From contig NZ_VOXD01000008.1 of NCBI RefSeq assembly GCF_008014675.1, forward strand, positions 62,001 through 126,000: a stretch of DNA of 64,000 nucleotides, read 5' to 3'. The notes below the pieces were generated by a model. It worked only from the letters and a program-made list of their open reading frames with translations, made no database searches and was not told the DNA's origin. The number at the start of each line of letters is the position of its first letter. The first letter of the stretch is position 1. A program made the position numbers and the translations under genes. This document shows, piece after piece, positions 40,422 to 58,609 of this stretch. The stretch comes from Neolewinella aurantiaca. GTDB taxonomy: Bacteria; Bacteroidota; Bacteroidia; Chitinophagales; Saprospiraceae.

Positions 40422-40484
40422 TTGCACCTGCGTCAGCGCCGTAAAATTTCTCAAGGGAAATCATAGGCGCGGACGCAGGTGCAA
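40422..40484. repeat. Inverted pair of the dispersed repeat between convergent genes
   Basis: TTGCACCTGCGTCAGCGCC (40422-40440) and GGCGCGGACGCAGGTGCAA (40466-40484) pair 18 of 19 bases; the 25-base spacer can extend the stem (ATTTC/GAAAT). It lies where the CotH gene and the leftward operon converge and could end both transcripts. The right arm encodes the last residues (LHLRPRL) of the leftward gene. Confidence 0.8.
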
Positions 40485-41927
40485 ATATTTGTCGGTCCCA
40501 ACGGGCAAGGGCCCTATACGCCCGACTCCGGTTTTCCCGGTGGAGATGAGTACATAACGCACGACCGTTTCCCGGTCAGCGAAGAACCGCCGCATTTGCA
40601 GCGGGGCACTATCGGCTGACGCCAGGTCCCAGCTGATTTTTTCCCGGCGGGGCTTACCGTCGCGCTGGTATAACAGGTGAACTTCCAGCAGATCGGCTCC
40701 TGCGGCCCGGTAGGCAGAAGTGTCGGCTTCCACTTCCATACTGTGCTCGGTGTAGGGAAGTTCATCCGGAGCGGTAGTCAGGTCCAGCAGGCTGGCCCAG
40801 TCAGGGGCTGTTTGCCAGTCTCCCGCCTTATCGGTCCCTTCCAGATTATACTCCACCACCCGGTAGCGGAATGGATGGGTAAGATCGATGGCGTAAGGGA
40901 ACCTCACCTGGCGGGTATGCTCTTCGGGGCGTGCGGTCATGAAACGGATCGGCTTCAGGCGGATGTTTGCTCCGGTGATTCCGGTGGCTTCTATCTCGAT
41001 GCTTTTCATCGCCAGGTCGGGCCGTAATTCATTGGCAAAATCGTAGCACCGGACCTCCAAAAAAGCCCATGCCGGCGGGGCTCCGTCGTTGAGGTCTATT
41101 TTTCGGCTCATATCCGGCCATTTATTCACATCGAGGTCCAGCGGAATGGTTCCCGTACGGACCACCCGGGGGGCACTGGTTGAATCCAGCAAAGTGAGTT
41201 CCCGGAGCAAATCATCCATTACTGCGACCGAGGCCGAATCACCTTCAAGGTCGTACCCCCCTGCCCTGTCGTCGACGGCATCGGCATAGAAGGCATAACC
41301 GATACTGAAGGTAAGGTTGCCGTCTTCTACTTCATCCCACAGCAATTCTGCCTCGTGCGGGCCCAGACGAACGGTGAAATACTTTTCGGTCCAGACATTG
41401 CCCGTTGCGTTATCGCCGTTTTCCAGCCCTGCGGGCTGGCCGATGCGTTGGTAATGACCATCGTTGTCGGCCAGGGGCATTACCAAATGGGCTTCCAGGT
41501 TGGCGATTGGCAGCGGAGACAGCGTAGTTCCCCGCCCCAGCTGTTTCCGGATCTCCTGCAACTCCTGACTGCTCACGGGTTTACGCTCTACGCCAATCTG
41601 CACAAGATTGACGAAGCCCCGGTCGCCCTGGTTACCAATAAGTGCGGTACCGGTGTACCGCATTTGCAGCAATTGAAATTGGGGGCGCCCGTTCTCTTCG
41701 CGCGCCAACTTGAGTTCTCCCGGCAGGTAGTAATGGTGGCGTGGCTTTTCGAGGTCCTCGTAGACCTCAACCCCGCCAATTGTTTTTACCGACGAAAGCA
41801 AGGGTTGCGCCCACCCCAACCCGGGCAGAGCGGCAAGCGCAATGAGCGTCAGCCACCCGGCCAGGAAGCCAGGGCTCCTGCTTCGCAGCTTCAAAACGCA
41901 AGGTTGCGGCAATGATAGTATTTTCAA
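40461..41927 (-). CDS. Secreted-paralogue family member 1 (488 aa), last gene of operon
   Basis: A secreted protein with a long basic signal region (hydrophobic GWLTLIALAALPGLGWAQ). It shares the two-lobe pattern of the larger neighbours: N-lobe YYLPGELKLAREENGRPQF, QELQEIRKQLG, then LGPHEAELLWDEVEDGNLTF; C-lobe FRYRVVEYNLEG, EVEADTSAYRAAGADLLEVH, LLYQRDGKPRREKISW and RRFFADRETVVRYVLIS. It lacks the middle part of the large members. The C-terminus is formed by the dispersed repeat, so the original end may have been lost or replaced. Function unknown. It starts 49 bases after the 522-aa gene. Confidence 0.7.
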   Translation of the reverse strand: MKILSLPQPCVLKLRSRSPGFLAGWLTLIALAALPGLGWAQPLLSSVKTIGGVEVYEDLEKPRHHYYLPGELKLAREENGRPQFQLLQMRYTGTALIGNQGDRGFVNLVQIGVERKPVSSQELQEIRKQLGRGTTLSPLPIANLEAHLVMPLADNDGHYQRIGQPAGLENGDNATGNVWTEKYFTVRLGPHEAELLWDEVEDGNLTFSIGYAFYADAVDDRAGGYDLEGDSASVAVMDDLLRELTLLDSTSAPRVVRTGTIPLDLDVNKWPDMSRKIDLNDGAPPAWAFLEVRCYDFANELRPDLAMKSIEIEATGITGANIRLKPIRFMTARPEEHTRQVRFPYAIDLTHPFRYRVVEYNLEGTDKAGDWQTAPDWASLLDLTTAPDELPYTEHSMEVEADTSAYRAAGADLLEVHLLYQRDGKPRREKISWDLASADSAPLQMRRFFADRETVVRYVLISTGKTGVGRIGPLPVGTDKYLHLRPRL

Positions 41928-41976
41928 AATCTGGTAGTTTTACTTGAGGTTTTATCAGGCTACAGACGAAACGGCA

Positions 41977-43545
41977 TCACTCATTGAACTCAGCGATATT
42001 ATCCCTGATTTGCCGCGATCCGATCACGACCTCTTTGCTGTTGCTGGGGATCCATTCCGATTCATAAGTCGTTCCGTCTTCGAGGTAAACGACCATTTTG
42101 TATTCGAAATCGACTTTCCCGTCGCGGACATACAGGGTTCCGCCGTCGAGTACCGTTCCGTCTTCATTTATAGTGACTGATTCCATTTCCGACTTTTCGT
42201 CTCCGGCAGCAGTAGCCTGGAAAGAGCGGAGTTTTATCCGGATGAGGCTTGCTTCGGTGAAGGCCATCGGGGTAAGAATGGTAAATTCGAGCTGTTCGGG
42301 TTTAGCCACTTCGTGCTGATCGATGCTGCCCAATATTTTTTTCTTGACTACTTTATTGCAGTCATCGCAATCGCTGATGGTGTAATCCATCCAAACGCGC
42401 TTCACGCGGCGGTCCGTGTCGACCCAGGTGGGAATGGTAGTTGCGCCGAAGTTGACGTTAGCGCCCGGCGGTATTTCTATTTCATCAGCCTTCCAGGAGT
42501 AGACGCGGTAGGTTCCGTTCCGCTCCTGCCGGAGGATGTGCAGGTGCCCCAGGTGGATCGGATAATCCGTTGGATTACGCCAGTTAGTGCGCCAGTCGCT
42601 GCCCTCTATTTCGAGATGACCGAAGGTTTCCGGCGCGTCGATTTTAAGGTTGAAGGGAATACTGATACTCGCGTCGGAGCCTTCGGGGAAGACGATGACG
42701 TTGCCGAACAGGCCGATGTTGTTGAAAAACATCGCCATCAGGGCGTCGATCTGATCGGTAGTGAACGAAAGAAGGATGGGCTCGCCGAGGTTGGATGGTG
42801 CCCGCAGGGAAATGTCTTCGGCGGCAACTCCGAACTGGGTCAGGTTGGTGAATTCAATTGCAGGCGGCTGGGCCATGGGGATGGCCATTAGTTCCTTCAC
42901 CCCAAACTGAGCTTCGGGCTTCCCGCGCAGGTCGGCAGTCAGTAGCTGCCGGGCAATGTCCACATCCTGATCACGGAGTTTGGGGCGCAGGACAGCGGTG
43001 ACCGTGGTCCGTCCAGGTCCATTTCCTGTGGCTGCACCGTAGGTAACGTTAAACTCATAGTTGCCGTTGCTGGCCGACCAGCCGAGATTGTATTCTTTCG
43101 GGATATAGTAGTAATAACCCGACTTGATGTTGCCATCGCGCAGTACTGTTCCGTACAGGCTGAGCACCTCGTCTTTTACCCGGCTTACGTCGGTCTGGAA
43201 GTTGTTTTCCAGATCGAAGGGAATGTTCTGTGGTCCTTCGCGTTCCAGTTCCAGGTAGGCGTCGGGATCTTCTTCCGGGGAGGCGGGGGTTGCCTCCGCG
43301 GGCTCCTCCGGTTTGGTACCGGGAGGAGCCGTGGTGATGGTGCCGGGCTTGAAAACTATACTCGGCTTGAACACCGCGGTACGCTTGATGTCGGTGATTC
43401 TCGTTCCGGTAGTGGTCCCAGGTTTTTTGGCATTGATGATGACCCGTCGGTTGTTCTTGAGCTCCGCCGGTTTGGTGGTTTGTCCGGAGGCTCCTGCGGG
43501 GTACAGCGACAGCAAGGCTGCGGCTATTGTTATCAGGTATTTCAT
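41977..43545 (-). CDS. Secreted protein, divergent family member 2 (522 aa)
   Basis: A protein with signal peptide (MKYLITIAAALLSLYPAGASGQ), followed by a Pro/Thr/Glu-rich linker (residues about 55-95). The following region has YYYYIPKEYNLGWSASNGNYEF, which resembles the YYLP motif of the large neighbours; the C-terminal part ends in FEYKMVVYLEDGTTYESEWIP, which parallels their YEYQVTWRLRDGTE. I regard it as a distant paralogue. A C-x2-C (DCDDCN) occurs near residue 395. No enzymatic motif. It begins 4 bases after the 193-aa gene. Confidence 0.65.
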   Translation of the reverse strand: MKYLITIAAALLSLYPAGASGQTTKPAELKNNRRVIINAKKPGTTTGTRITDIKRTAVFKPSIVFKPGTITTAPPGTKPEEPAEATPASPEEDPDAYLELEREGPQNIPFDLENNFQTDVSRVKDEVLSLYGTVLRDGNIKSGYYYYIPKEYNLGWSASNGNYEFNVTYGAATGNGPGRTTVTAVLRPKLRDQDVDIARQLLTADLRGKPEAQFGVKELMAIPMAQPPAIEFTNLTQFGVAAEDISLRAPSNLGEPILLSFTTDQIDALMAMFFNNIGLFGNVIVFPEGSDASISIPFNLKIDAPETFGHLEIEGSDWRTNWRNPTDYPIHLGHLHILRQERNGTYRVYSWKADEIEIPPGANVNFGATTIPTWVDTDRRVKRVWMDYTISDCDDCNKVVKKKILGSIDQHEVAKPEQLEFTILTPMAFTEASLIRIKLRSFQATAAGDEKSEMESVTINEDGTVLDGGTLYVRDGKVDFEYKMVVYLEDGTTYESEWIPSNSKEVVIGSRQIRDNIAEFNE

Positions 43546-43549
43546 GGTG

Positions 43550-44131
43550 CTATTGTTTGATGGAGGAAGCGCTCCCCACGGGTGAAAAACTTACGGAAAC
43601 GGTTACGTCAGAGGAGGAGGAGGCGCTGTTGCTGGTTCCGTCACGGAACCGGTGGTCGACGCGAAACTCGGCCGACTTACCCGTGAGGGTAAGGCCAGCC
43701 ATGTCCAACTCCGACAGCGGGTCATCGCTGGCGACGATGGTGACCTTGAGGTAGCGAACAGCGATGTAGTCTTCCTCGGAGTTGTTTGCTCCGGCATCGA
43801 AGCGCAAGCGGATATCTGCGGAGGAGGGTTTCCCGCTGAGCGAAACAGCTACAGGCGCGCAGCCTTCCACCGTACGGCGGTTGGCATCGAGCAAGCGACC
43901 GATGAGTTTGTACTCCTTGTCGTCGTAGCCCGTGTATTCCAGGCGGGCGGTGTAGTAATCGTGGCCGGTGGCGAGTTCGCACGCACCTTCGATGCTCTGG
44001 GAATCATCCCCCAGTATTCCGGATAAGATGCCAGACCCGGAGTTGGATGGGCTGAGCGGGGAACAATCCTGGGCACCTGCGTTCAGCGCCCAGAAAAGCA
44101 GTAAGACAATCGTCAATGTCAGGTATTTCAT
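43550..44131 (-). CDS. Small secreted protein of the operon (193 aa)
   Basis: A 193-aa secreted protein with signal peptide MKYLTLTIVLLLFWALNAGAQ. The mature part begins with a cysteine and a Ser/Gly-rich segment (DCSPLSPSNSGSG), then beta-rich sequence with YTGYDDKEYKLIGRLLDANR. It lies 6 bases after the metallopeptidase-like gene and 4 bases before the next. The end of its signal peptide (ALNAGAQ) is encoded by a copy of the dispersed repeat (44071-44090). Not recognised. Confidence 0.65.
   Translation of the reverse strand: MKYLTLTIVLLLFWALNAGAQDCSPLSPSNSGSGILSGILGDDSQSIEGACELATGHDYYTARLEYTGYDDKEYKLIGRLLDANRRTVEGCAPVAVSLSGKPSSADIRLRFDAGANNSEEDYIAVRYLKVTIVASDDPLSELDMAGLTLTGKSAEFRVDHRFRDGTSNSASSSSDVTVSVSFSPVGSASSIKQ
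44071..44090 (+). repeat. Dispersed repeat copy inside a signal-peptide coding region
   Basis: GGGCACCTGCGTTCAGCGCC, read on the coding strand as ALNAGA at the signal-peptidase site of the 193-aa secreted protein. Confidence 0.55.
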
Positions 44132-44137
44132 AATTCT

Positions 44138-45520
44138 CTATTTGTTGCTTGCCGTTGCTCCTTGCGGAGTGCGAACGTGCAGATGTTGGGAAAGTCGGCT
44201 GAGCTGATTGCCAACGTGCCAGGTTGTAGCGTTGGGCCGAAAGCCGGTGAGTGTGGCCCGGTGACGGCTGAAGTAGTCGTCGATGTTGGTATCGGTGGCG
44301 GACCAGGTCGTACCCAAAACCGTTTCGAGGGATGCTTTGCTGTCTATCTTGTAGCCGGTATAGTAGTCCAGGATAGCTACGGGCATGAACTGTCCGTGCG
44401 TCCGGGTTCCGGAGGGGTTGCTCCGGTTGTGGTAATTATTGGCAGCTTTGGTGAGTTCTTTGAAGAGCGGCATGAAGGTGTAATTGCTGCTATTGGCCAT
44501 ATCCGCTTTTGCCCTCCGGGTCGCTCTTGCCAACATTGAGGTGCTGCGGAACTGGGCGCAAACCTGGTAGAGGACATTGGCAGGGATCATCTCATTGTGG
44601 AGAATCACGTCGGCCGAGATGTCTCTGATTTTGTAGCAATCTGTGCCTGCAGAACAGCCGCCCGCCGAAGCAACTGAATCTGCCGCCAGGCGGTGTTGCA
44701 GACAGTGAGGCGTAGCCGAAGCGCAGGAAGCGATATCCTCGGCGTAAAGCTTCCGGTCGGCGTTAAGCGCCGAGGTAACACTAAACGCGGGGGGTAGATA
44801 ATAGCGAAAGGCAAATGCGTTGGCGATACCTTCGTCAAATGCACTGTTCCTGCTGGGAATCATTTCCCAGAAAGTATGCCCGCCGTCGGGGCCGTACATA
44901 TTCGTGGTCAGTGTGCTCTCCAACGCAAGGTCAAGCTGGGTATGCACCAATTCGTGGATGAACACCACCTTTTTTTCCTTTTCGGTCGTCCAGCCACCAG
45001 CGTTAAGGCCTGCGGTATTGAAATAGGAACCGATGCCAAAAAGGCCGGTGTACGTTGGGTCGTTTCGGTAGGTATTGCCCGAAGGCCAGGCTGCGTTGCC
45101 GTGTCCGGCGGCGTAGGTACCGTTCCCGGGCATGTAGATCGGCAACGTAGCATGATGGGCACTGTTCGCGTTATCGTGGTAGAGGAATATCCGGACTTTC
45201 TTGCTTGTGATCGCCAGTACTGTAGCAACGACGCGTTGCAACCGCGCGTCTCCGCCCCGGCTGGGTTCGCGCAGCAGATCTTCGAGAAGCGCCTGCAGGC
45301 CATCGTTGTCGGGATTCGTCCACAGCGGGTTGTTGATGGTATCCCCCCGCGAAATTTTGAGTTTATTAATCTCCGTAGCGGCGTAGCCGGGAAAGGCATT
45401 TCCGGGATTGTCGATGTAGAAAAACTCCAGTTTTTCGAGAACGATTTCGCGGTAACCAGCCTCTGCCTGTGGGGTCAGGATCGTCGCAAAAACGATCAGT
45501 GACATTAGTAACTTTTTCAT
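44138..45520 (-). CDS. Secreted HELVH metallopeptidase-like protein (460 aa)
   Basis: A 460-aa secreted protein (signal MKKLLMSLIVFATILTPQAEAG). The zinc-protease motif H-E-x-x-H is present as VVFIHELVHTQLDLALE (near residues 190-205), with a downstream glutamate in SAFDEGIANAFAFRYY (about residue 236) in the usual gluzincin position. Cysteine-rich part CASATPHCLQHR and GGCSAGTDCYKI follows, perhaps disulfide-bonded. I do not recognise the peptidase family. It lies 21 bases after a large paralogue gene, in the same operon, so it may process or act with those proteins. Confidence 0.7.
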   Translation of the reverse strand: MKKLLMSLIVFATILTPQAEAGYREIVLEKLEFFYIDNPGNAFPGYAATEINKLKISRGDTINNPLWTNPDNDGLQALLEDLLREPSRGGDARLQRVVATVLAITSKKVRIFLYHDNANSAHHATLPIYMPGNGTYAAGHGNAAWPSGNTYRNDPTYTGLFGIGSYFNTAGLNAGGWTTEKEKKVVFIHELVHTQLDLALESTLTTNMYGPDGGHTFWEMIPSRNSAFDEGIANAFAFRYYLPPAFSVTSALNADRKLYAEDIASCASATPHCLQHRLAADSVASAGGCSAGTDCYKIRDISADVILHNEMIPANVLYQVCAQFRSTSMLARATRRAKADMANSSNYTFMPLFKELTKAANNYHNRSNPSGTRTHGQFMPVAILDYYTGYKIDSKASLETVLGTTWSATDTNIDDYFSRHRATLTGFRPNATTWHVGNQLSRLSQHLHVRTPQGATASNK

Positions 45521-45541: not shown

Positions 45542-47491
45542 TTAGAGTTGATCGGCGTAGATGAGCAGAGAGTTACTTTCCTTCCGCGGGGACTTCCGTT
45601 CCGTTCCGTCGCGGAGCCGCCAGGTCACCTGGTATTCGTAGCCGGGTTCCTGCGCCAGCCATTCGGCTGGCTCCATGATTTCAACGCGGGTTTCGGGCAC
45701 TTCATCCCGGCTGCGGAGTTGTACCTGCCGGGTCTGTTCCTGATCACCGACGGTAAAAAACACATCGACCTGGGCCGACCGGATTTCTTCTTCCGCCATG
45801 ATTTCGGGATCCATTTCCACGATGATCGACTTGAGGCGGTACGGTGGGCTGAGCGGCAGGGTATTAATGTCGGTCTGGTTCCACTCCCCTTCTATCGTGA
45901 CTCCGCCGAAAAAGCTCCATACCGTCTGGTATTCGTAGCCCCTCCAGAGGCTACGGTTATCGTCGCCCTTCCAGCCGTAGGTGAATTTAAAATAGTTCCC
46001 ATCCTGGTTGAAGCGCGAGCGATCGATCCGGATGTCACCTTCGGTGGTTTCTCCGTTTTGGTGTTTTTTACGAAAAGCCACCGATACGAAGTTCAGCGAA
46101 CGCTGGAAGTCTTCCGCGTTGAATCCGTCCAGGATTGCGGCAATTTCCCGTTGCTGGTACAGCGGGTCATCGATGTTGAACTGCTGAAAACATTCCTCAC
46201 AGTTGATGGGACCAACGTTGTGATCGAAACGCAACGACAAGGCAGAGGTAGTGTACTTCGTAAGGTCGATCCGGTAAGTCCCTTTCTGGCGGACGTCCCG
46301 CATGGTGTATCCCACTACGATCGCTGTGGTGGGCAGCGTTGGCCTCGGTCGCTCGTAGCTGAAGCGGGAGGGCGGAACGTTTTGCGGTGCCGGCTGTGGC
46401 TGGCGGCGACCTCCTACCGGATGGAGACTCGTCGCCCGTGTGCTGTCGCCGGCGGTCGTTCCGACGGTGCCTGTATTACCGGTGCCGTTGTCATCGTCCT
46501 GTTCGTCAAGAGGGTTCTGCTGTTCCAGTATGGCCAGTTCTTCGAGCACGTCTTTGCGGCCTTCGGCCAGCAGCGTTTGCGCCCGCTCCAGCATTCCCGG
46601 CTGGGCAGCCCCCGGCAAGGCCGGCGCTGCGGGCGTTCCGGTGTTGCTCCCGCTGGGGTCGAACATCAGGGCGGTAAGCTTAGTGTAGGCATCCTTCACC
46701 GCGGCCTCGATGTCGGCGTCGGGGTTGATGGTCGTTACTTTGATGGCTCCGCTGCGGGTAAGATCTTCAAAGGTGGCGTTGATCTCAGCGCCCAGCATCG
46801 TGTTTCCCTGCCGGGAAACCATACCGGCGCCGAAGTTCTGGTGCTTGTAGATTTGCTCGAAGTTGGCTTCGATCACGGCACCCTTCGGTGAGTTGAGGCC
46901 TTCCAGTTCCATTTCGAAGGAGAAACTCATGTCGGGGGTGGGTGTCTGAAAACTCTGCCAGAGTACCTGAGCGCCCAGCTTGGTCAGCTGAATGGAAACC
47001 GCCGCTTTCTGGCCGTCCAGAATGGGCGCCCTGCCAACGCCGAGCACTTTTTTGGAAAAGCCCGCGTCGGGGTCGGCAACGGTCGAGATCAGGGCTACCG
47101 TTCCTCCGGTATACGGAGCCGCGCCGGCGATGGTTCCGTTAGGGTTGATCCGCCGCAACTGCCGGCGGGCTTCGGCCAGCTGGTCTTCGGTTACCTTCAG
47201 TTCGATGACGGCGTGGATGATGCCACCGCCCTGGCCTTCGGTGATGTCCTCCTCCCCTGGCGCGGAAGATTCGTTGCTCACATAGCGGATGAAGGAGAAT
47301 TGAGGCTTCCCGTTCGGGTGTTTCGCAAGCTGCGGCTTATCCAGCGCATACCGGTATTCGTTGTGCTTGCGCAAACTCTGAAACAGCGTGAGTTCGCCGG
47401 CACGAACGGGCTCGTCCAGCAGGATATCCTGAGCCGAAAGCGGTACCGACAGCAGTCCGATCAGGCAGAGCAGGATGAATTGAAATTTCAT
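45542..47491 (-). CDS. Secreted two-lobed paralogue 3 (649 aa)
   Basis: One of the large family members. The ATG at 47491 starts MKFQFILLCLIGLLSVPLSAQ; the longer frame upstream has no signal. N-lobe: FSFIRYVSNESSAPGEEDIT, GGGIIHAVIELKVTEDQLAEAR, VGRAPILDGQKAAVSIQLT, LGAQVLWQSFQTPTPDMSFS, AVIEANFEQIYKHQNFG. A Pro/Thr/Gln-rich linker (about residues 290-390) follows. C-lobe: LNFVSVAFRKKHQNGE, FTYGWKGDDNRSLWRGYEYQ, VWSFFGGVTIEGEWN, YEYQVTWRLRDGTERKS. Function unknown; closest to the 593-aa neighbour. The operon continues 21 bases downstream. Confidence 0.75.
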   Translation of the reverse strand: MKFQFILLCLIGLLSVPLSAQDILLDEPVRAGELTLFQSLRKHNEYRYALDKPQLAKHPNGKPQFSFIRYVSNESSAPGEEDITEGQGGGIIHAVIELKVTEDQLAEARRQLRRINPNGTIAGAAPYTGGTVALISTVADPDAGFSKKVLGVGRAPILDGQKAAVSIQLTKLGAQVLWQSFQTPTPDMSFSFEMELEGLNSPKGAVIEANFEQIYKHQNFGAGMVSRQGNTMLGAEINATFEDLTRSGAIKVTTINPDADIEAAVKDAYTKLTALMFDPSGSNTGTPAAPALPGAAQPGMLERAQTLLAEGRKDVLEELAILEQQNPLDEQDDDNGTGNTGTVGTTAGDSTRATSLHPVGGRRQPQPAPQNVPPSRFSYERPRPTLPTTAIVVGYTMRDVRQKGTYRIDLTKYTTSALSLRFDHNVGPINCEECFQQFNIDDPLYQQREIAAILDGFNAEDFQRSLNFVSVAFRKKHQNGETTEGDIRIDRSRFNQDGNYFKFTYGWKGDDNRSLWRGYEYQTVWSFFGGVTIEGEWNQTDINTLPLSPPYRLKSIIVEMDPEIMAEEEIRSAQVDVFFTVGDQEQTRQVQLRSRDEVPETRVEIMEPAEWLAQEPGYEYQVTWRLRDGTERKSPRKESNSLLIYADQL

Positions 47492-47670: not shown

Positions 47671-49452
47671 TTATTCCTCTTCGGGGAGTTCGTCGACGAA
47701 CAGCACGTTGTCCGATGCCGTCAACCGCCCCGAAGAGACGACGCGGTTGCCCCGCAACCGCCAGGTGACTTCGTATTCATACTCCCCGACGTCCGTCGGG
47801 GCAACGAAGAGAATCTTCTCCGAAAGCTGGTTCCGGCTCGGGTTCAGGGAGATGGCCTTGAAGAACTCCTTCTCCCCCATCGTGTAGTAAAGCTTGACGT
47901 TCACAAGCCGCACTTCCTGATCTTCCAGAAAGGTCGGATCGGCCTGGAACTCAACTTCACGCTTGGCGTAAGGCGGAGCCAGGTTGATGGCGTTGAAAGA
48001 AGAGGTTTTAAGCGGCTCCGCCACTTCTACGTCTCCGAAGAAACTCCAGAGGACTTCGTGGTCGTATTCCATCCAGTCGTTTCTGTTATCGTCGCCCTTC
48101 CAGCCGTACACCATACTGAAGTTGTTTCCTTTCTTGCTGAACTTCTCACGATCAATTACGACTTCTTCGTGGGTGACCTCGCCGTTGGCGTGCTCCTTTT
48201 TGAGTCGTACGGTTACGAAGTTGATGTACTCCGCAAAATCGGCCGCGTTATAGCCATCAACCACCGCGAAGACCTCCCGTTGCCGGTACAGCTCATCGTC
48301 CGTATTGATCTGGTGGAAGTACTGAGGATTCCCCTGAAAGCGGGACAGGTTACCGATGTTTTCGTCGAAGCGCATCACCAGCTCGTCGGTGGTCCATTTG
48401 TTGAGGTCCATCCGGAAGGTTCCAGTCCGGCGTTTTTGCTTCATCGAAAACGAGAAAGTGATGCCTGATACCGGAGATGATGGTTGCTGAGCCTCTCCTC
48501 CGCTCCGGCCCCGGTTGGCGAGGGCCATCATTTGCTCGGGGTTCATTTGGCTGGTGCTCTGGGCCTCTGTCCGGTCAAACATGATGTCGGCCAGTTTAGT
48601 GTAGGCGAGTTCCAACAGCTTATCCATGCCTTCGTCTGATCCGATCTGGGTGACCTTGATTTTACCGTCGCGGTGCAGTTTCTCGAACTGCGCTTTCAGG
48701 TCGGCACCGAAGTAGACCGGTACCGTGCCCCGGGCTTCCGAACTACCGTCGGTCGCTGCCGCCGACCCCGTTCCGCCGACCCCCGCCTGCAGGCCAAATT
48801 CCATCGATTCGTAAAGGTCTTCGAAGTTGGCTTCAATCACGGCTTCCTTCGGCAGTCTGTAACCGTCCATCGTCATGTTAAACGAGAAACTGATGTCTGG
48901 CGTCGAAGTCTGAAAGGAGTTCCAAAGCAGGGTCGCTCCCAGACGAGTCAGGTGCATCGAAACAGCAGCCTGCTGGCCGTCCAGGATCGGTGCCTGCCCC
49001 AACCCGACCACCTGGCTGCTCAGTTCGCCGTTTTCTCCCGTAAATGAGCTGACCAAACCGAAGGTGCCCGATTTAAAAATGACCGGCCCGATGATTTCGC
49101 CATCCGGGTTTACCTGTCTCAGTTCTCTGCGGGCTTCTTCCAGTTGTTCGTCGCTTACCGCCAGGCTGACCACCGCATGCACGATACCGCCTCCTTCTCC
49201 CCGCGTGTTATCGGTTTCGCCGGGTTCGCTGGTCGCGTTGGTTACGTACCGTAGGAAGGAGAACCGGGGGTTCCCGCTTTCGTCAACGGCCAGCCGGGCT
49301 TTGTCCGCAACGTAGTAGTAATTCTTGTCGTTGCCGACCTCAGGAAAGAGGGTGAGTTCTCCCGCCTTCGTGGGCAGGTCAAGGATGATTCTCTGGGCAT
49401 CCGCCGTAAAGAACCAACCAAGAAAAATCGTGAATACCATTACATACTTCAT
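47671..49452 (-). CDS. Secreted two-lobed paralogue 4 (593 aa)
   Basis: A 593-aa protein with signal MKYVMVFTIFLGWFFTADAQ. N-lobe: YYYVADKARLAVDESGNPRF, FLRYVTNATSEPGET, GGGIVHAVVSLAVSDEQLEEA, LGQAPILDGQQAAVSMHLT, WNSFQTSTPDISFSFNM, AVIEANFEDLYESMEFG. Middle: a helical pair ending in AYTKLADIMFD, found in two other members. C-lobe: INFVTVRLKKEHANGEVTHE, MVYGWKGDDNRNDWMEYDHE, LWSFFGDVEVAEP and YEYEVTWRLRGNRVVSSG. The protein ends in an acidic ELPEEE. Unrecognised family. Confidence 0.75.
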   Translation of the reverse strand: MKYVMVFTIFLGWFFTADAQRIILDLPTKAGELTLFPEVGNDKNYYYVADKARLAVDESGNPRFSFLRYVTNATSEPGETDNTRGEGGGIVHAVVSLAVSDEQLEEARRELRQVNPDGEIIGPVIFKSGTFGLVSSFTGENGELSSQVVGLGQAPILDGQQAAVSMHLTRLGATLLWNSFQTSTPDISFSFNMTMDGYRLPKEAVIEANFEDLYESMEFGLQAGVGGTGSAAATDGSSEARGTVPVYFGADLKAQFEKLHRDGKIKVTQIGSDEGMDKLLELAYTKLADIMFDRTEAQSTSQMNPEQMMALANRGRSGGEAQQPSSPVSGITFSFSMKQKRRTGTFRMDLNKWTTDELVMRFDENIGNLSRFQGNPQYFHQINTDDELYRQREVFAVVDGYNAADFAEYINFVTVRLKKEHANGEVTHEEVVIDREKFSKKGNNFSMVYGWKGDDNRNDWMEYDHEVLWSFFGDVEVAEPLKTSSFNAINLAPPYAKREVEFQADPTFLEDQEVRLVNVKLYYTMGEKEFFKAISLNPSRNQLSEKILFVAPTDVGEYEYEVTWRLRGNRVVSSGRLTASDNVLFVDELPEEE

Positions 49453-51649: not shown

Positions 51650-53581
51650 TCAGTCTTTAATAATCAGGTCTTTAAATTTGTCGAGCACGTCTCCGGCCTG
51701 CTCCCCTCCGGCGACGGCCTTACCAAGCTCGACCATCTCGTCGATGGTTTCCTGCTTGCGGTCGCGCAGTTCTTCGGGGATGACGGCAAACAGGTAGCCC
51801 GTATTGATCTTCGCGTCCCACGGCGTGGCCAGCGGACCGTGGTCTTCGTGGAAGAAAACATACCGGTAGGCGTAACCCTGGGTATTGCGGTCCATAAAGA
51901 TTCTGTCCTCCAGGTAACCGATCTGGCGCGAGACGTTCAGGTTGAAATTGCTCTCCGTTGGTACGCCAAATTTGTAGTACCGTACCTGTACCGATACGTT
52001 CCGGATGCCGTTGTCTTTCATCGCCTCCAGGTCCGCTTCCAGGCGCAGCGGAGTCGGGGTAACCGGCGGGGCCAGGGTGAGGCCCTGCCAACTGCCCTGT
52101 GTCCAGCTGGTGTCGGGTACGAAGGTCCGCCCACCGCGCAGGCTGTACAGGGTCCGGTACTCGAACAGGTCGGGGTTTTCGTCTTCCGCTTTTGAGTAAG
52201 TGATGGTGGTCCGGTTGCCCTCCTCTTCGAACATTCTCTTGTCGAAGGTGACCTGTCGCTGGAAGTCGTTGGCGCCTTCTGCGCTGCGGCGCTTCCGAAT
52301 GTCGACGGAGACGAAGTTGAGCTCTTTGCCGAACATATCTTCGGCGTCCAGATCCAGGATCAGCTGAATCTCACGGTGCTCGAAAGTGGGATCGTTGAGG
52401 TTTACGGTATTAACGCATTTCTCGTTGTCGCGCACACCATCGTACCACGACGCCAGGTTTTCGACCAGTTCAAACTGCCGGGTGATGGGCAGCCGTACGC
52501 TTAGTTCGTAGGTTTCCTTGCGGCGCTGTTTCTTGATGTTCAGTCGTTCCCGGTTCACGGTGTAGCCACGGTAGCGGTAATCGTAGCCCCGCTGATCGTT
52601 GCGCTTATCGTCGGGGTCCTCCTCTTCGCCGGGCGGACGGAACTCCCGCTCCGAAACCGAGCGCAGGAAATATTCCATGAAGGCGGTTACCATTTGTTTG
52701 GCTACCTCGCTGTCGGGCTGAAGGTTGTCCAGCTGCACCACCACTGCCTTCTGCTCCTGCATCTGCGAAAAGAGGGAATCCCGCTCTGTGTCAGAAATAC
52801 TCACCTTGCGGTCCCGTTTTTTGTCGTTGCTGCGGTTGGCCGTACGGGTGTACGTCTGGTACACCGAATCCACACTCGACCAGTCTACCGTAATTCTTCC
52901 GTCAACGGCAGGCATCAGCAGGTCGTACTCAAAGCGCAGGGCCAGAGAGACATCCGTGATGGAACTGCTCTCCTCAAAGCTCGCAGCCAGCAATTGGGCT
53001 GCGTTTTTCTCCATCATGGCAGCTACTGCGACCTTTCCGCCCGGTATGATGGGCGCCCGGCCCGAAGTGACCAGGGTTGGGGTTTCTTTGCCGTTGCTGA
53101 GTACCGCAGAAATCACTTCGAACGAGTTGTCCGGATCGGTCCGCACGTCCACGGCCCCCATTACCCGGGGATTCTCCACCGCCGCGAAGCGGGGGTCTGT
53201 GGAGGAAAGGCCTTCGATGCGGGAGGTAAGCTTTGTCTGTAGTTCCTCCTCTTGTTCAGGGGTAAGCCCCCATTCCATCAGAAAGTGCATCAGCGCTCCG
53301 GACACATCGTCTTCGGCGTCTTCGGTGGTGAACTTGCTGAACAGAAACATCGGTGTACCGTCGGCCTTTTTCGAAAGACGAAGTCCGGCGGGCAGGTAAC
53401 TGTACCTTCCGGTAAAGTCTTTACTCAGTGAGTTGGTGTGGCCATAGAGCGTCACGGAGAGTCCGTCAGACAGTACGACATCCACCCGGTTGGCGAAGTC
53501 TAAAGTTTGTGCACTGGCGTACCAACTTAAAAAGCTGATAAACAGTACTAAAAGGAAGGTTGATTTAAAGTTAATGATCAT
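51650..53581 (-). CDS. Secreted two-lobed paralogue 6 (643 aa)
   Basis: A 643-aa secreted protein. I prefer the ATG at 53581 (MIINFKSTFLLVLFISFLSW, cleavage after SAQ) to a GTG one codon earlier; it overlaps the upstream stop by one base (TGATG), so translation is likely coupled. N-lobe: LSDGLSVTLYGHTNSLSK, LPAGLRLSKKADGTPMFLF, GALMHFLMEWGLTPEQEEEL, SGRAPIIPGGKVAVAAMME. C-lobe: LNFVSVDIRKRRSAEGAND, YSLRGGRTFVPDTSWTQGSW, LEADLEAMKDNGIRNVSVQ, VRYYKFGVPTESNFNLNV, RIFMDRNTQGYAYRYVFF and VIPEELRDRKQ. Closest to the 685-aa neighbour. Confidence 0.75.
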   Translation of the reverse strand: MIINFKSTFLLVLFISFLSWYASAQTLDFANRVDVVLSDGLSVTLYGHTNSLSKDFTGRYSYLPAGLRLSKKADGTPMFLFSKFTTEDAEDDVSGALMHFLMEWGLTPEQEEELQTKLTSRIEGLSSTDPRFAAVENPRVMGAVDVRTDPDNSFEVISAVLSNGKETPTLVTSGRAPIIPGGKVAVAAMMEKNAAQLLAASFEESSSITDVSLALRFEYDLLMPAVDGRITVDWSSVDSVYQTYTRTANRSNDKKRDRKVSISDTERDSLFSQMQEQKAVVVQLDNLQPDSEVAKQMVTAFMEYFLRSVSEREFRPPGEEEDPDDKRNDQRGYDYRYRGYTVNRERLNIKKQRRKETYELSVRLPITRQFELVENLASWYDGVRDNEKCVNTVNLNDPTFEHREIQLILDLDAEDMFGKELNFVSVDIRKRRSAEGANDFQRQVTFDKRMFEEEGNRTTITYSKAEDENPDLFEYRTLYSLRGGRTFVPDTSWTQGSWQGLTLAPPVTPTPLRLEADLEAMKDNGIRNVSVQVRYYKFGVPTESNFNLNVSRQIGYLEDRIFMDRNTQGYAYRYVFFHEDHGPLATPWDAKINTGYLFAVIPEELRDRKQETIDEMVELGKAVAGGEQAGDVLDKFKDLIIKD

Positions 53582-54291
53582 CACTTTGGGCTTGTAGGGA
53601 GGGAGAAAATTCGTTCGGAATTGAAACGACCATCAGCTTTCGGGCCGGGGTCTTTCAGGATGATGGTTTCTGGCTGACTGGCAACCGCTTTCCACAGCCG
53701 GTTAGGGGTTGTAGACATCCGGGCAAGCACGCGTTCTTCCGCCACCGGTGGTTCGGGCATGATTAAAGCGAGTCCGGCGGAGACAAAGTCGGAGCAGTTG
53801 AAATCGTACAGGTCGAAAGGGCGCTGCTCATCGATCATCCGCTGCATGAAGGCGATCAGTTCAGCATCCTGAGCAGGACTGGTGGGCAGCCGGGCCAGGC
53901 CGTCCACCCCGTCTTTCATGGCGTGGGGCAGCCCCTGCTCCATAAGACTGTTTGTGGTGACGGGCGCTGCGGCCGAACTGGTCGGCAAGCGGTAGTATCT
54001 GGCCGGCGTGCTCCCGAAGAAGAAACTATAGGTGTACCTCTCTTCGGCGGGCCACAGATCGAAGTAGACCATCTCTCCGGTCTTAACCGTATCGTAGCGG
54101 ACGCCACCGGGGCAGTCCCTACAGTCCGTGATCCGGATCTTGTTTTTGTCGACGGCGATACCGACGTGTCCGGTTTTACCGCCGTAGGTGGCGTAGAAGA
54201 CGAGGTATGCGTCAGCAGCCATTCCCTGCACCTGCGTCCGCGCCGCAAAGAAGGCCGTGAACACCAGTAAAATCAAAGTGATTCGAGACAT
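53581..54291 (-). CDS. Secreted permuted papain-like (NlpC/P60-type) protein
   Basis: A 236-aa secreted protein (ATG at 54291; signal MSRITLILLVFTAFFAA). The mature part shows a permuted papain-like order: a histidine motif, YGGKTGHVGIAVDKNKIRI (about residues 37-55), then much later a cysteine motif, FDLYDFNCSDFVSAGLALI (about residue 165). This His-then-Cys order is that of permuted NlpC/P60-LRAT-like hydrolases, which cleave amide bonds or act on peptides or lipids. The N-terminus carries the repeat-encoded ARTQVQG. It overlaps the half-size paralogue upstream by 19 bases and the next gene by one base, so it is translationally tied to the secreted family. Confidence 0.6.
   Translation of the reverse strand: MSRITLILLVFTAFFAARTQVQGMAADAYLVFYATYGGKTGHVGIAVDKNKIRITDCRDCPGGVRYDTVKTGEMVYFDLWPAEERYTYSFFFGSTPARYYRLPTSSAAAPVTTNSLMEQGLPHAMKDGVDGLARLPTSPAQDAELIAFMQRMIDEQRPFDLYDFNCSDFVSAGLALIMPEPPVAEERVLARMSTTPNRLWKAVASQPETIILKDPGPKADGRFNSERIFSLPTSPK
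54227..54244 (+). repeat. Dispersed 18-bp repeat inside a coding sequence
   Basis: TGCACCTGCGTCCGCGCC. Read on the minus strand as ARTQVQ at the signal-peptide end of the papain-like protein, in the same frame as the copy in the lyase gene. Confidence 0.7.
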
Positions 54292-54956
54292 GATGAAAAG
54301 CTTTTGGTGAGCGAAAAACGGGTGGGTGGTACCGGGCGGTAAGCACCGGCGAATGTTTTGAGATGGATGCGCAGATAGACTTCCTGCCACGCTTCTTTAT
54401 CGGGCAGCAGCTCCGCCAGGAGCTTGGCATCTGCGGCTGAAAAGCTGAACGAGGCAGCCATCTTCCCCCCGGCGTTGACCGGAGGAGACGGTTTTGAATT
54501 CAGCCCGCGTAAAAGCAGCTGCGCGAGAGGATGATCCGGCGGGCCGATCTCGAGGCCTTTGGCCACAGTATCCCGCTCCAGTGGCAGGCTTCCTGCTACG
54601 TACTGGCTGCTGTCGGTCCGCATCCGGACCAGGTCCTTCAGTTCTCGTTCCTGCGAATCAGTCGGTCCCCAGGTCAGCAGAAAATGGAGGATTCCGCCAA
54701 GGATTTCTGAAGTACTGTCCTGGCGGTAAGCCAGGAACGAGAACTCCTTATCCCCCGATCGTGCTTCGGCTACCCGGAGGTTGAAGGGCGCATACATCCG
54801 GCCCTTATCGGGGCCGTCGAGCGTGTAGCGTTCGTACAGCGAAACCTTATTTCCGTCGAGGAGCGTCACTTCCAGCGGCCGGTCGCGCTGGCCGCTCAGG
54901 TGGAGAGCGGCCAGCAACAGAAGGGTTAAAGGCAGGGTTTTCGGCAGGTGCGTCAT
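54273..54956 (-). CDS. Half-size paralogue 7: N-lobe only (227 aa)
   Basis: A 227-aa secreted protein (signal TLPLTLLLLAALHLSGQ). It matches only the N-lobe of the large paralogues: VTLLDGNKVSLYERY, RMYAPFNLRVAEARSGDKEF, FLAYRQDSTSEILGGILHFL, LTWGPTDSQERELKDLV and AASFSFSAADAKLLAELLPD, closest to the 685- and 643-aa members. The C-lobe is absent: it ends after FSLTKSFSSCLESL, where the papain-like gene begins. Either a natural single-lobe protein or a gene truncated when the papain-like gene was inserted. Starts 4 bases after the 576-aa gene. Confidence 0.7.
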   Translation of the reverse strand: MTHLPKTLPLTLLLLAALHLSGQRDRPLEVTLLDGNKVSLYERYTLDGPDKGRMYAPFNLRVAEARSGDKEFSFLAYRQDSTSEILGGILHFLLTWGPTDSQERELKDLVRMRTDSSQYVAGSLPLERDTVAKGLEIGPPDHPLAQLLLRGLNSKPSPPVNAGGKMAASFSFSAADAKLLAELLPDKEAWQEVYLRIHLKTFAGAYRPVPPTRFSLTKSFSSCLESL

Positions 54957-54960
54957 GGGA

Positions 54961-56691
54961 TTAGTCTTTGGGTGGCTCGTCGAAAAAGATCAGTCCGAAT
55001 TGATCGGTTCCCCTCCAGCGGAGGGGTGTGCCGTCGGATCTCATCAGTGAAATCTGGTAATCGATCGCTTCGTGGCCCAGCGGCAGGGTCACCTCGAAGG
55101 GGGCCAGGCCCGGGTCATCGCCCGGGCGCAGCAGCCGGCTGTCGGTCCGTTCCTGATCGAAGAAGGGATAAGTTATTTTGACGGATGCGGCCCTGATTCC
55201 CTGGCTTTGCAGGTTGTCCAGATCTCCCTCCAACGAGATGCTTCTGCGTTCGAAAGGCGTATAAAGGTTGATCATCGCGGCACTGGTCGTATCCCAGTCC
55301 GTCGTGTAAGTTCCGCCTCCGGTGAATTGCCAAACCTCCTGGTGCTCGTAGCTAAGCCACTCGGTCATGCTGCTGTCGCGGTCGTTGAGGTAAACCATCC
55401 GAAACTGACCGGTAGAATCACGGAAGTTGCGGCGATCCACCATCACTTCCTTCAGCGTCGTCGCGCCGCTGTTGTGCACCTTCCGCATCCGGACGGTTAC
55501 GCTGTTGACCATGTCGGCAAAGGCCCGCTCCAGCGAACCATCCAGGTTTACGTGAACGGCGCGCTGCTGAAAGGCAGGATCGTACAACGCAACGCTGCGG
55601 AACAGATCCTCCCGGTCGCCGTACTGCTGCCACAAATCGCCGATGTTGAAGGTGATGAAGTGTTTGCGGCTTACCGTAGAGCGGCCGTTGAATTTCAGGT
55701 GGGACTTGCCCGACACCTTCAACTCTTTATATTTGAAGCCGACCGACAAGCCGAATCCGGTAGTGTTGCGGCTGCCGAGGGCGCCGTTGGCGCCCAGCAT
55801 CGAGCCCAGCGCATCCATCATACCTGCTCCTCCGCCTGGGACTTTCTCCGGTTCGACCTTCTGGAACAGCATCGTCAAGAGCTTATCGTACACGGTGGAG
55901 AGGAGCCCGTCGAGGTGTTCGTCTGAGCCTGCGGTCGTCATTTTGATGGCGTTGTTGCGGCGCATTTTGTCGAGGGCAACTTCCACGTCGGCGCCAACGA
56001 AGTAGACTGATCCTCCGGCACTGTAGCTTTCGCTTTTGCGGACTTCATCGAAGTCGACTTCGATCTCCGCTTCGTAGCTTTCGGTCAGCCCTTCGTAGTC
56101 GAGTTCGAAGACCACGGAGATGTCCGGCGTTTTCATTTTGAAACTCTCCATCAGCAGTTGCGCCCGTTGGGGATCGAGGCTGAAGGAAAAAGCGACGCGG
56201 TTGTTCTCCAGCGTGGGTGCGGTGCCGGTGCTGAGCACCGCTTGTTTTTCGGTGCCGTCGGGCTGGAGGATGAAGGACACCAGCAGGTAGCGGCCGGAAG
56301 TGAACGCCCATGGACCTTTCAGCACGACCTCATCGTTGTCGAGTTTTTCGCGCAGGGCGGCCGAGGCCCTCGCCACCTGCTCCGCAGGTGTATCATAGAG
56401 GACCAGGAAATTGACAATCCCTCCCCCACCCGCTGCGGAAACCGACCGGGCATCGTCTCCGGCTGGTTTTTCGGTGACATAGCGGAGGAAGGAAAACTCG
56501 GGGATGGAGTCTGACGTATGCCCCAACCGGCCACGCCCCGGCAGGTAGTAGTAGCTCAGTTCGTCGCCGTAGACGGGGAAGCACCACAGGCCGGCGGCCT
56601 GTACGCCACGGTCTGCCAGCAACTGCTGGGCTGCCGCTTCGGGCAGGCCGGCCAGGAGAACCAGAACGAATAGGAAGAGCAGATTTTTCAT
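54961..56691 (-). CDS. Secreted two-lobed paralogue 8 (576 aa)
   Basis: A 576-aa secreted protein. The ATG at 56691 opens MKNLLFLFVLVLLAGLPEAA; the longer frame has no signal. N-lobe: YYYLPGRGRLGHTSDSIPEF, SFLRYVTEKPAGDD, GGGIVNFLVLYDTPAEQVAR, AQLLMESFKMKTPDISVVFE. The helical middle (VEVALDKMRRNNAIKMTT to LLTMLFQK) matches the 593- and 649-aa members. C-lobe: VNSVTVRMRKVHNSG, MVYLNDRDSSMTEWLSYEHQ, VWQFTGGGTYTTDWDTTSAA, SLEGDLDNLQSQGIRAASVK. Function unknown. Confidence 0.75.
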   Translation of the reverse strand: MKNLLFLFVLVLLAGLPEAAAQQLLADRGVQAAGLWCFPVYGDELSYYYLPGRGRLGHTSDSIPEFSFLRYVTEKPAGDDARSVSAAGGGGIVNFLVLYDTPAEQVARASAALREKLDNDEVVLKGPWAFTSGRYLLVSFILQPDGTEKQAVLSTGTAPTLENNRVAFSFSLDPQRAQLLMESFKMKTPDISVVFELDYEGLTESYEAEIEVDFDEVRKSESYSAGGSVYFVGADVEVALDKMRRNNAIKMTTAGSDEHLDGLLSTVYDKLLTMLFQKVEPEKVPGGGAGMMDALGSMLGANGALGSRNTTGFGLSVGFKYKELKVSGKSHLKFNGRSTVSRKHFITFNIGDLWQQYGDREDLFRSVALYDPAFQQRAVHVNLDGSLERAFADMVNSVTVRMRKVHNSGATTLKEVMVDRRNFRDSTGQFRMVYLNDRDSSMTEWLSYEHQEVWQFTGGGTYTTDWDTTSAAMINLYTPFERRSISLEGDLDNLQSQGIRAASVKITYPFFDQERTDSRLLRPGDDPGLAPFEVTLPLGHEAIDYQISLMRSDGTPLRWRGTDQFGLIFFDEPPKD

Positions 56692-56818
56692 TGGGGTGTT
56701 TGGGTTTGGGGATCGCGCAGGGGAACAGGACGGTAGTCCGGATGCTTTACGACCGAGATAATTGTGGCGGATCAGGTGGCGGTGGCGTGCAGTTCCTCCC
56801 CGCGCCAGGGGGCAGGCG

Positions 56819-58609
56819 CTAACCGCCTTTGGGGGTAAGAAATAAGTACCCATCGGTAAGTTCCCGGATCGGTGTGGCCTCCGAACCGCTGCCGTCGGCA
56901 GCTATCCACCTGATCTGATAGGCAGTCGTTTGTTCGTGGTCATGGTAGAGGGCTATTTTGTGGGTGTTCTCCGTATCATTTGCCCGTAGGGTCAGCCGTT
57001 GTTGTATCTGCGGACTTCCGTTGAGCACGGTGAAGAAAACGACCGTTGCCGCCTGCATGCCTTTGGCCCCGAAGGATTCCAGGTCTGCATCCACCTCGAC
57101 GAGGGACTTGGCGAAGGGCGGTTTCAGCGAAACCGCGCCCAGGGCGCCGTCCAACCAATCGTCCGGGTTGTGGGGCAGGTTAACGGTCTGGGACTCGCCC
57201 TTGAAACTCCAACTCAGCCGGTAGTTATAGTTGAGCAGGTCGCGGCCGCTGAGCCCGAGCGCGGGATAAACGATACTTTTGAAATCGGTTCCCGTCTTTA
57301 AATCTTTACCGGTTATTACGATTTCTTTCGTGACCGGTTCCTGCCCGTTCCCGTAGCGCTTGCGGAAGCTGACCGTTACGAAATTGAGAATACTGCTAAA
57401 GGCTTCAGCGAAGGATCCGTCGATTTGGAAGATGACCTCTCTGTTGGCAAAGTCGGCCTCTTCCAGGTTGACGACGCGGAAGTAAGGTCCGTCTTCGTTG
57501 AACAGGTCGTACATCCCCCGGATGTTGCCGGTGGTGAAGAAAGGAACCTTAATGGAAGTCGCCTTACTCAGGTTGAGGTAGAACTTACTGGTACGGATGT
57601 ACTTTTCGTCTTTCAGGACGAACTGGTTGTCGGTCACGTATTTCTGGTCTCCGGTTCCGGCGAAGAAGCGGGAGAATCCGCCGCGCTCCTGCCGGCCTTT
57701 GATCTGGCCCTGATCGAGGGTCGGGATGGTTTCCGGGCGGGCCGCCCAGCCGAGTTTGGCGTCGAACATAAGCTCGATGAGCTTATTGGTAACGAGGTCG
57801 ACGATGGCGGCCATGTCTTTGGTATCGATGCCGAGTCCTTCGGAGCGGTCGAAGACCTCCACCTTTATTTTCTGGTCCTGAATCAGTTCATTCACCGCTT
57901 CCCGGAGGCTCGAGCGGTCGTACCCGCCCTGCTCGTTGAACACCAGACTAAAGTGCTCGTAAACGGTGCTGGCCTCTGCCTCGATCACGGCGTTGTACCC
58001 CTTCACGTAGGCTTCGTAGTAGCCACTAATGCTGACCGACACATCCGAGGTGGCTCCTTCGAAAGAACTCCACAGCAGGGTTGCGCCTTCCTGGCTCAAC
58101 TTGGCGGCGATGGCGGCGCGCGAGCCTGGCAGCAACGGACAATGATTGCTGCTTACGATAGACTGGGTGAGCGGTTTCTCCCCTTCCGTATCGGACAGGA
58201 CAGAAGAGACGACCTCCATGCTCCCCATCCCCTCTTCGCCGTCGCGGATGTTTTCGTGCAGCGGCACGGGTCCGGCGATACGGCCGTTGGGGACTTCTTT
58301 CCGAAGTTCAGCCTCGATCTCCCGGATGCGTTCCGGCGTAAGGCTGAATTCCACAAGGGCGTGCAGCAGCCCGCCGTTGTCGGCGGGATCGGGACCACCG
58401 ATGTACTTGATGCACATAAGCTCGAAAGTACCATCTTCGCGAACCGCCAGGCGGGGTGCATCGGCGAAGTAGTAATAATCAGTCGGCACATCACTGTCCT
58501 GCAACAGGATAATGCCATCGATCGTCCGGCGGCCTTCGTCGTACTTCACGATGGCGAAGGCCGCCTGGGCCCAGACGCAAAGGAGCAGTGTAATTATAAA
58601 TCGGTTCAC
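56819..58609 (-). CDS. Secreted two-lobed paralogue 9 (596 aa), first gene of operon
   Basis: A 596-aa secreted protein. The GTG at 58609 is chosen because it starts NRFIITLLLCVWAQAAFA, a good signal peptide; the frame extends 76 codons further without one. N-lobe: YYYFADAPRLAVREDGTFEL, NGGLLHALVEFSLTPERIRE, LPGSRAAIAAKLSQEGATLL, WSSFEGATSDVSVSI. C-lobe: LNFVTVSFRKRYGNG, YNYRLSWSFKGESQTVNL, VEVDADLESFGAKGMQAAT and TTAYQIRWIAADGSGSE. As the promoter-proximal member it defines the operon start; a palindrome at 58720 and a repeat-rich region lie upstream. Function unknown. Confidence 0.72.
   Translation of the reverse strand: MNRFIITLLLCVWAQAAFAIVKYDEGRRTIDGIILLQDSDVPTDYYYFADAPRLAVREDGTFELMCIKYIGGPDPADNGGLLHALVEFSLTPERIREIEAELRKEVPNGRIAGPVPLHENIRDGEEGMGSMEVVSSVLSDTEGEKPLTQSIVSSNHCPLLPGSRAAIAAKLSQEGATLLWSSFEGATSDVSVSISGYYEAYVKGYNAVIEAEASTVYEHFSLVFNEQGGYDRSSLREAVNELIQDQKIKVEVFDRSEGLGIDTKDMAAIVDLVTNKLIELMFDAKLGWAARPETIPTLDQGQIKGRQERGGFSRFFAGTGDQKYVTDNQFVLKDEKYIRTSKFYLNLSKATSIKVPFFTTGNIRGMYDLFNEDGPYFRVVNLEEADFANREVIFQIDGSFAEAFSSILNFVTVSFRKRYGNGQEPVTKEIVITGKDLKTGTDFKSIVYPALGLSGRDLLNYNYRLSWSFKGESQTVNLPHNPDDWLDGALGAVSLKPPFAKSLVEVDADLESFGAKGMQAATVVFFTVLNGSPQIQQRLTLRANDTENTHKIALYHDHEQTTAYQIRWIAADGSGSEATPIRELTDGYLFLTPKGG

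Follow-up and report, generated by a model that had tools for sequence, protein, structure and literature searches.

The window analysed here (64,000 nucleotides of Neolewinella aurantiaca, positions 62,001 to 126,000 of contig NZ_VOXD01000008.1) carries at 40461-58609 an operon of twelve genes, g1 to g12, most of which encode members of a family of two-lobed paralogues (lobe proteins). The operon is proposed to encode an exported multi-subunit scaffold that carries one exchangeable hydrolase (cargo) on an adaptor of the g8 type; the probability of this reading is put at about 0.53. It is directly supported by the paralogy of the lobe genes, their division into five classes, the conservation of the gene set, the leaders of the encoded proteins, the exchange of the cargo gene relative to g1, g2 and g5, and the co-segregation of the cargo gene with the adjacent lobe gene. 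Related loci are designated by L and a number; coordinates without a locus name are those of the window.

The twelve open reading frames are all on the minus strand and neighbouring ones are separated by -19 to 179 bases. Their starts, assigned mechanically, are those given beforehand in a first-pass annotation made from the letters alone; two start codons are unusual (GTG for g1, at 58609, and TTG for g12, at 41927). All twelve proteins have a hydrophobic N-terminus according to hydropathy scoring, whose cut-off stands in for signal-peptide prediction in all leader calls given here. The compact leftward series of leader-bearing proteins described in that annotation is thus retained.

The same annotation proposed a family of at least seven paralogues, one of them devoid of a C-lobe, and this family was recovered by BLASTP within the operon. 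The comparison connects g1 (56819-58609), g2 (54961-56691), g5 (51650-53581), g6 (49498-51555), g7 (47671-49452) and g8 (45542-47491) across both lobes, and g3 (54273-54956), which hhalign also aligns with g5, by the N-lobe alone. The strongest pairs are g7/g8 (E=3e-144) and g5/g6 (E=5e-97). Two further genes had been considered distant members. The first, g12 (40461-41927), is a divergent but full-length member (g12 and g1 profiles: hhalign 99.1%, E=9e-19). The alignment of the second, g11 (41977-43545), with g12 is limited to the N-lobe region and is suggestive only (72%, E=3e-5), and g11 is retained as a possible distant N-lobe relative. The operon therefore includes seven full two-lobed members (g1, g2, g5-g8, g12) and an N-lobe-only one (g3).

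A tree built from 142 lobe proteins, obtained by a quick method and including some long branches, separates the classes g12, g1, g2 and g5+g6 with a Shimodaira-Hasegawa-like approximate likelihood ratio (SH-aLRT) support of 100, and g7+g8 with a support of 99. Classes g1 (25 rows) and g12 (19 rows) are monophyletic (SH-aLRT 100 each). Every one of the five classes contains proteins from Bacteroidota as well as rows from metagenome-assembled genomes (MAGs) of Planctomycetota and Acidobacteriota, and all five are present in complete core operons. One lobe gene per class has thus been retained together through divergence or transfer, as expected if the classes match different positions in one assembly. 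In the comparison with the locus of a congener, the ratio of nonsynonymous to synonymous substitution rates is 0.04-0.08 for g1, g2, g3, g5, g7 and g8 (0.04 for g5), synonymous changes being near saturation. The identity between the two congeners is 75-88% for the products of g1-g8 (86% for g1, 88% for g5) and 52-58% for those of g9, g10 and g11.

The genes taken for a unit in the first-pass annotation are indeed kept together in Saprospiria and beyond. One of 20 congeners carries g1-g11 in the same order up to the end of its contig. Matches to the lobe profile were found in 20 of 248 genomes of the family (own genome included; best E <1e-140 in 11) and in 4 of 395 genomes sampled across the phylum (own genome included); because of this last count the system is considered sparse. 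A single query had suggested that the operon is nearly private to two species (2/40 genomes, own included), and the profile searches overturned this. A collection scan gave 26 loci, which are not independent of one another. They come from Saprospiria, Cytophagales (Dawidia, Parachryseolinea, Lacihabitans, Emticicia, Agaribacillus), Flavobacteria (Aquimarina, Muriicola, Flavivirga) and MAGs labelled Marinilabiliaceae, Acidobacteria, Sedimentisphaerales, Gallionellaceae and Kiritimatiellae. For an individual contig, the MAG label may be in error; group names above the genus follow record titles or common usage. The common core order is g11, g12, g1, g2, g5/g6 type, g7/g8 type, then a variable slot; g11 and g12 are placed after the slot in many Saprospiria and some Cytophagales. 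Core set and order are kept in Bacteroidota and in the Acidobacteria, Sedimentisphaerales and Gallionellaceae MAGs, and L092 includes the whole core operon plus an HExxH cargo. For all six genomes behind named loci that were considered (6/6), every lobe match among the matches listed sits in one cluster. Lobe genes are labelled as hypothetical proteins in the annotated records examined. The Kiritimatiellae MAG carries an operon copy with broken reading frames (L106, 5951-13358), due either to decay or to an assembly error.

The gene found in the slot after the g7/g8-type gene differs between loci. A recognised catalytic type is encoded in 21 of the 25 readable slots: 13 HExxH proteins of the g9 type, 3 M43 proteases (L084, L066 and L104, with a Pfam C70 match among these only in L104), 2 astacin plus C70 (L086, L090), 1 C70 alone (L091), 1 slot with an amidase (L098) and 1 subtilase (L099). 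Three others encode proteins with a g9-like N-terminal domain and unassigned C-termini; the last one (L068) is empty of cargo. This count omits L083, L085, L093 and L094, whose contigs stop too early for the slot to be read, L106 with its broken frames, the duplicates L065/L067, L062, L063 and L081, and the fragments L069-L074, one of which, L072, shows an M43-type profile match. The slot is not always directly next to the lobe gene, from which it is separated by one small gene in L086 and L090. A further lobe gene is found after the cargo in L084, L088, L089 and L101. In L089, an extra lipoprotein-like gene (17277-18479; beta-propeller by eye) lies between a lobe gene and g10.

The occupant of the slot in the window is g9 (44138-45520), whose assignment as a HELVH zinc-peptidase-like protein is borne out by its relatives: HELVH is at residue 189, HExxH is found in 13/13 relatives, and a downstream E-G/A-x-A/G is found in 11/13 by pattern and in the other two by eye. 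The Flavobacterial cargo (9 genes from 4 loci, L095, L096, L098 and L100) have about 180 N-terminal residues in common, with C-termini that differ by eye. Residues 2-185 of g9 match this N-terminal domain (hhalign 97.8%, E=9e-13), the match ending just before HELVH. One of the three cargo genes of L098 encodes an Amidase_2 (N-acetylmuramoyl-L-alanine amidase); the other Flavobacterial cargo proteins scanned have no assigned family. In their papain-like part, the astacin/C70 cargo can be aligned with the M43 cargo profile (hhalign 98.0%).

That these hydrolases are hitch-hiking neighbours, the lobe proteins being simply a surface appendage, is highly improbable. Slot occupants do vary, one is lacking in L068, and the joint movement of adjacent genes requires no interaction. 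However, the proportion of catalytic slots (21/25) contrasts with the absence of peptidases and peptidoglycan hydrolases from a small control, the 10 upstream flanking genes scanned out of 16 candidates, which included 2 glycoside hydrolases. Moreover, 30/30 cargo proteins of exported loci pass the leader cut-off, like the scaffold (111/114 lobes).

Cargo types are exchanged between related scaffolds. L084 (M43) groups with the window, L021 and L082 (g9-type) in one g1 clade (support 100), as does L090 (astacin plus C70) with L088 and L101 in another (support 100). Likewise, g5 clades with a support of 99 unite loci whose cargo differ, namely L086 with L087 and L103, and L091 (C70) with L064. 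Per-gene FastTree trees were compared for 23 loci that have g1, g2, g5, a cargo and a cargo-adjacent lobe gene, which leaves out L086 (without g1) and L068 (without cargo). In this comparison, designed after the pattern had shown in the 142-protein tree, the distribution of two labels (g9-type versus protease/C70-type, 18 loci) takes 1 change on the tree of the adjacent g7/g8-type gene; 0/2000 shuffles were as low (shuffled mean 4.5). The same labels take 5, 4 and 5 changes on the g1, g2 and g5 trees, where 2000, 841 and 2000 of 2000 shuffles, respectively, were as low. With four cargo labels, 3 changes are found on the adjacent lobe gene (0/2000 shuffles as low). Since a single change on the adjacent lobe tree is opposed to 4-5, about the chance value, on the three others, the adjacent lobe gene and the cargo travel as a cassette, which does not include the gene preceding that lobe gene. 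The simplest functional reading of this co-segregation is that the g8-type protein is a cargo adaptor.

The first-pass annotation suggested a self-processing surface or secreted assembly in which the two peptidase-like proteins act as maturation or effector parts. An exchangeable effector is favoured over a maturase because the slot occupant changes between related scaffolds, one occupant is an amidase, and two leaderless relatives of the lobe family lie near muramidases. Maturation, i.e. the cleavage of the lobe proteins by the metallopeptidase and the papain-like protein, is unlikely, even though peptidases are co-encoded in most readable loci, the long linkers present in g8 of the window and in g7 of the congener could be cleaved, and co-segregation with the cargo could mean that g8 is the substrate. 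An amidase in one slot and unrelated proteases on related scaffolds would be odd for the maturase of conserved proteins. In addition, the second peptidase-like gene, g4 (53581-54291), is optional, being absent from the operons L095 to L100; g3 is also optional across related loci. The leader-bearing g4 protein is, as first described, a permuted papain-like one: the motif GHxG...NC (order H...NC) was detected by pattern in 12/14 orthologues. It has no Pfam match, and we take it to be NlpC/P60-like.

According to the scaffold-cargo model, the lobe paralogues (classes g12, g1, g2, g5/6 and g7/8) would together form a hetero-oligomer; given the variable number of subunits, a linear stalk or stack is more likely than a fixed ring. 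The g8-type subunit would bind the slot enzyme (here the HELVH metallopeptidase g9) and would be swapped together with it; docking could occur via the N-terminal domain of about 180 residues in g9 and the Flavobacterial cargo types. The core component g11, together with g10 (43550-44131), may form a terminal module for the recognition of a surface or a glycan. The small leader-bearing g10 protein is homologous to the N-terminal part of longer g11 proteins (hhalign 98.7%, E=5e-16, six of the nine g10 rows having been added by eye), and L105 and L099, as judged by eye, carry a fusion of both. The g11 protein of Aquimarina L095 has an N-terminus made up of ricin-type lectin domains, and this one clear case suggests a binding role for g11/g10. 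The enzyme would thereby be positioned against its substrate, which is probably another cell's envelope or matrix; the peptidoglycan-acting cargo of a few loci leans towards bacterial envelopes. Physical assembly, docking and targeting, with antagonism or predation as the purpose, are what we infer from the genes.

The lectin domains also fit substrate binding by an extracellular digestive complex. Cellulosome-like scaffolds are non-catalytic scaffold proteins that carry hydrolases outside the cell, and this is where they resemble the proposed model. Following the same logic, the lobes would hold proteases or peptidoglycan hydrolases near the producer's surface so that it can feed on polymers or on dead cells, with neither killing nor delivery into cells. 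Cargo are mostly proteases, Saprospiria and Flavobacteria degrade polymers, and the two glycoside hydrolases among the ten flanking genes are compatible with such a function. However, no cohesin or dockerin family was found by Pfam in any of the 12 window proteins or of the scanned cargo proteins, the operon encodes a set of distinct paralogues instead of repeated docking sites, and leaderless relatives beside muramidases or caspases do not fit feeding. This digestive reading is rather unlikely.

Leaderless relatives are lobe proteins of other loci, 0/20 of which pass the leader cut-off; they were chosen by eye before scoring, so that this count describes the split and is no test of it. Some distant lobes (L032, L076, L077, L079) do have leaders. 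The neighbours of the leaderless lobes include a muramidase with a peptidoglycan-binding domain (PG_binding) at two loci, a caspase at two loci (one with PG_binding) and a PLD-like protein at one. The muramidases are near the single-lobe loci L112 and L113; in L113 (6561-14068), the leaderless lobe gene, apparently split by a frameshift, is accompanied by a C1 papain-like gene and the muramidase gene. The arrays beside caspases are those of L030 and L110; the one from a Bacteroidota genome adjoins two caspases. Leaderless relatives are also found in other phyla, with plasmid-borne loci in Pararhizobium, Paracoccus, Calothrix and Deinococcus. On the Deinococcus plasmid (L110, 15154-16758), caspase and peptidoglycan-binding domains are encoded by one gene near a lobe-family gene. 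On a Paracoccus plasmid, a PLD-like gene lies within the array and a tyrosinase gene at its end; trypsin-EAD1, EAD1 and ATP-binding genes are directly upstream of a leaderless array in L108 (4414-9301), also from a Paracoccus plasmid. A mobile-element origin of the operon was considered and rejected: no relative was found in viral contigs (one pattern scan) or phage records (two queries), and g6 is unmatched in plasmids, although leaderless lobe relatives do occur there. A Paraburkholderia record contains a short match.

A broader proposal, which is tentative and less likely than not, is that exported and leaderless forms (the latter lysis-released or intracellular) belong to an undescribed class of hetero-oligomeric machines present in several phyla, which would attack other cells with interchangeable warheads mounted via a cargo-specific adaptor. 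The proposed warheads are metalloproteases, papain-like proteases, peptidoglycan hydrolases and caspases. The same neighbourhoods could instead indicate a defence or cell-death system, in which lobes would sense an insult and release or activate an enzyme. Caspase, trypsin and EAD domains occur in bacterial conflict systems (PMC7159879, PMC8195603, in the parts of these papers that were available), and leaderless arrays lie beside caspases (L030, L110) and a trypsin/EAD1 pair (L108). Yet all twelve window proteins have leaders, the conserved set includes neither a nucleoside triphosphatase (NTPase) nor a sensor, and PADLOC gave 0 families for the 10 of 12 proteins submitted; this explanation is very unlikely.

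The lobe family was described as unrecognised from the start, and it is a two-lobed paralogue family for which the libraries searched gave no convincing match. No window protein gave a match above the curated cut-off or below E 0.01 in Pfam (12/12 proteins scanned, to E 1 or 0.5), NCBIfam (10/12), PHROGs (10/12) or PADLOC (10/12), and the assignment of window proteins to known families was dropped, as these scans gave no acceptable match. In the PDB, 0 matches were found with the lobe-alignment profile or with phmmer searches of two Flavobacterial cargo proteins and g4. The AlphaFold2 model of g2 (mean pLDDT, the predicted local distance difference test, 82; pTM, the predicted template modelling score, 0.56) predicts a mixed alpha/beta N-lobe and a beta-rich C-lobe with a fibronectin-like terminal domain; from its list of elements, the N-lobe may consist of two beta-beta-alpha-beta-beta units. 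Compared with the PDB by Foldseek, the full model gave 17 rows at E<=0.001, with TM-scores <=0.17; many of them are strings of immunoglobulin (Ig), fibronectin type III or macroglobulin domains. The best Z of VIA is 6.7, and its top rows cover residues ~480-574. Rows from BFVD are as weak as those of Foldseek and VIA. The N-lobe model alone (mean pLDDT 75) gave no Foldseek row at E<=0.001 and a best VIA Z of 7.0 over 91 residues, a score range that the tool calls common. Among the titles and abstract openings listed in the literature covered, none gives an account of the operon or of the lobe family, preprints and many journals being outside this coverage.

Several observations weigh against the scaffold-cargo model. 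The lobes have no confident fold match in the Foldseek or VIA searches, and the operon encodes no recognised pore, anchor or energising protein. The cargo, proteases in the majority, could be digestive. The slot of L068 is devoid of a recognised hydrolase, and lipoprotein-like genes follow the lobe gene of fragment L074. The joint transfer of two adjacent genes would give an identical co-segregation even if their products did not bind each other. The four cargo labels take 7, 6 and 7 changes on the g1, g2 and g5 trees, with only 67, 2 and 44 of 2000 shuffles as low, a weak clustering ascribed to close relatives sharing cargo. Among the leaderless loci, no cargo enzyme is assigned in L033, L075, L078, L107 and L109, the leader score of the L113 muramidase (2.06) barely exceeds the cut-off, and a twin-arginine-like segment is found at the start of the Paracoccus tyrosinase.

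The proposed assembly resembles several known systems in part. Like polymorphic toxin systems, it includes proteins with a constant N-terminus and a variable C-terminus (Flavobacterial cargo) and shows cargo swaps between related loci; unlike them, the constant partner is a multi-gene scaffold and not a single long secreted protein, and the effectors recognised at these loci are mostly extracellular-type proteases. With contractile injection systems, tailocins and type VI systems it would share a multi-subunit particle with an exchangeable payload, here a proposal made from genes alone, and two leaderless relatives lie beside muramidases. By contrast, all twelve operon proteins have hydrophobic leaders, and no sheath, tube, baseplate, spike or AAA+ family was found among the window genes (Pfam 12/12, NCBIfam 10/12, PHROGs 10/12). 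The likeness to the conflict systems that use caspases, trypsins and EADs is limited to some leaderless arrays that adjoin caspase or trypsin-EAD1 genes; in contrast, Pfam detects no NTPase core or EAD in the window operon, and EAD1 is found only beside one leaderless relative. The lobe family is not mentioned in the available parts of Kaur et al. (eLife 2020, 2021; PMC7159879, PMC8195603). Alpha-2-macroglobulin and complement proteins also contain strings of Ig-like domains, and macroglobulin chains are among the weak Foldseek matches to the g2 model; however, the TM-scores of these chains are <=0.10 and the lobe profile matches no sequence of the PDB.

Three genes of the plus strand flank the operon. 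The divergent upstream gene (59655-60728, 357 amino acids) has no Pfam match and is not shared with related loci. It is followed at 60709-63684 by a gene encoding a two-component sensor with propeller repeats and histidine kinase domains, which could regulate the operon. Past the other end, 37615-40392 encodes a CotH kinase-like protein with lamin-tail domains and a type IX sorting tail; a sorting domain of this type (PF18962 type) was detected by Pfam in this neighbouring gene and in none of the 12 operon proteins.

The scaffold-cargo model predicts that g8 binds g9, and defined genes for its study are available in records whose titles name Aquimarina, Flavivirga, Dawidia, Parachryseolinea and Emticicia, among others. 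If the lobe proteins do assemble, they would constitute a new kind of multi-protein particle, found in several phyla, with a replaceable enzyme and its cognate adaptor. If the broader proposal of an attack machine is true, it would join toxin complexes and contractile injection systems as a new entry. The operon could be relevant to the way in which Saprospiria and other Bacteroidota attack or digest other cells.

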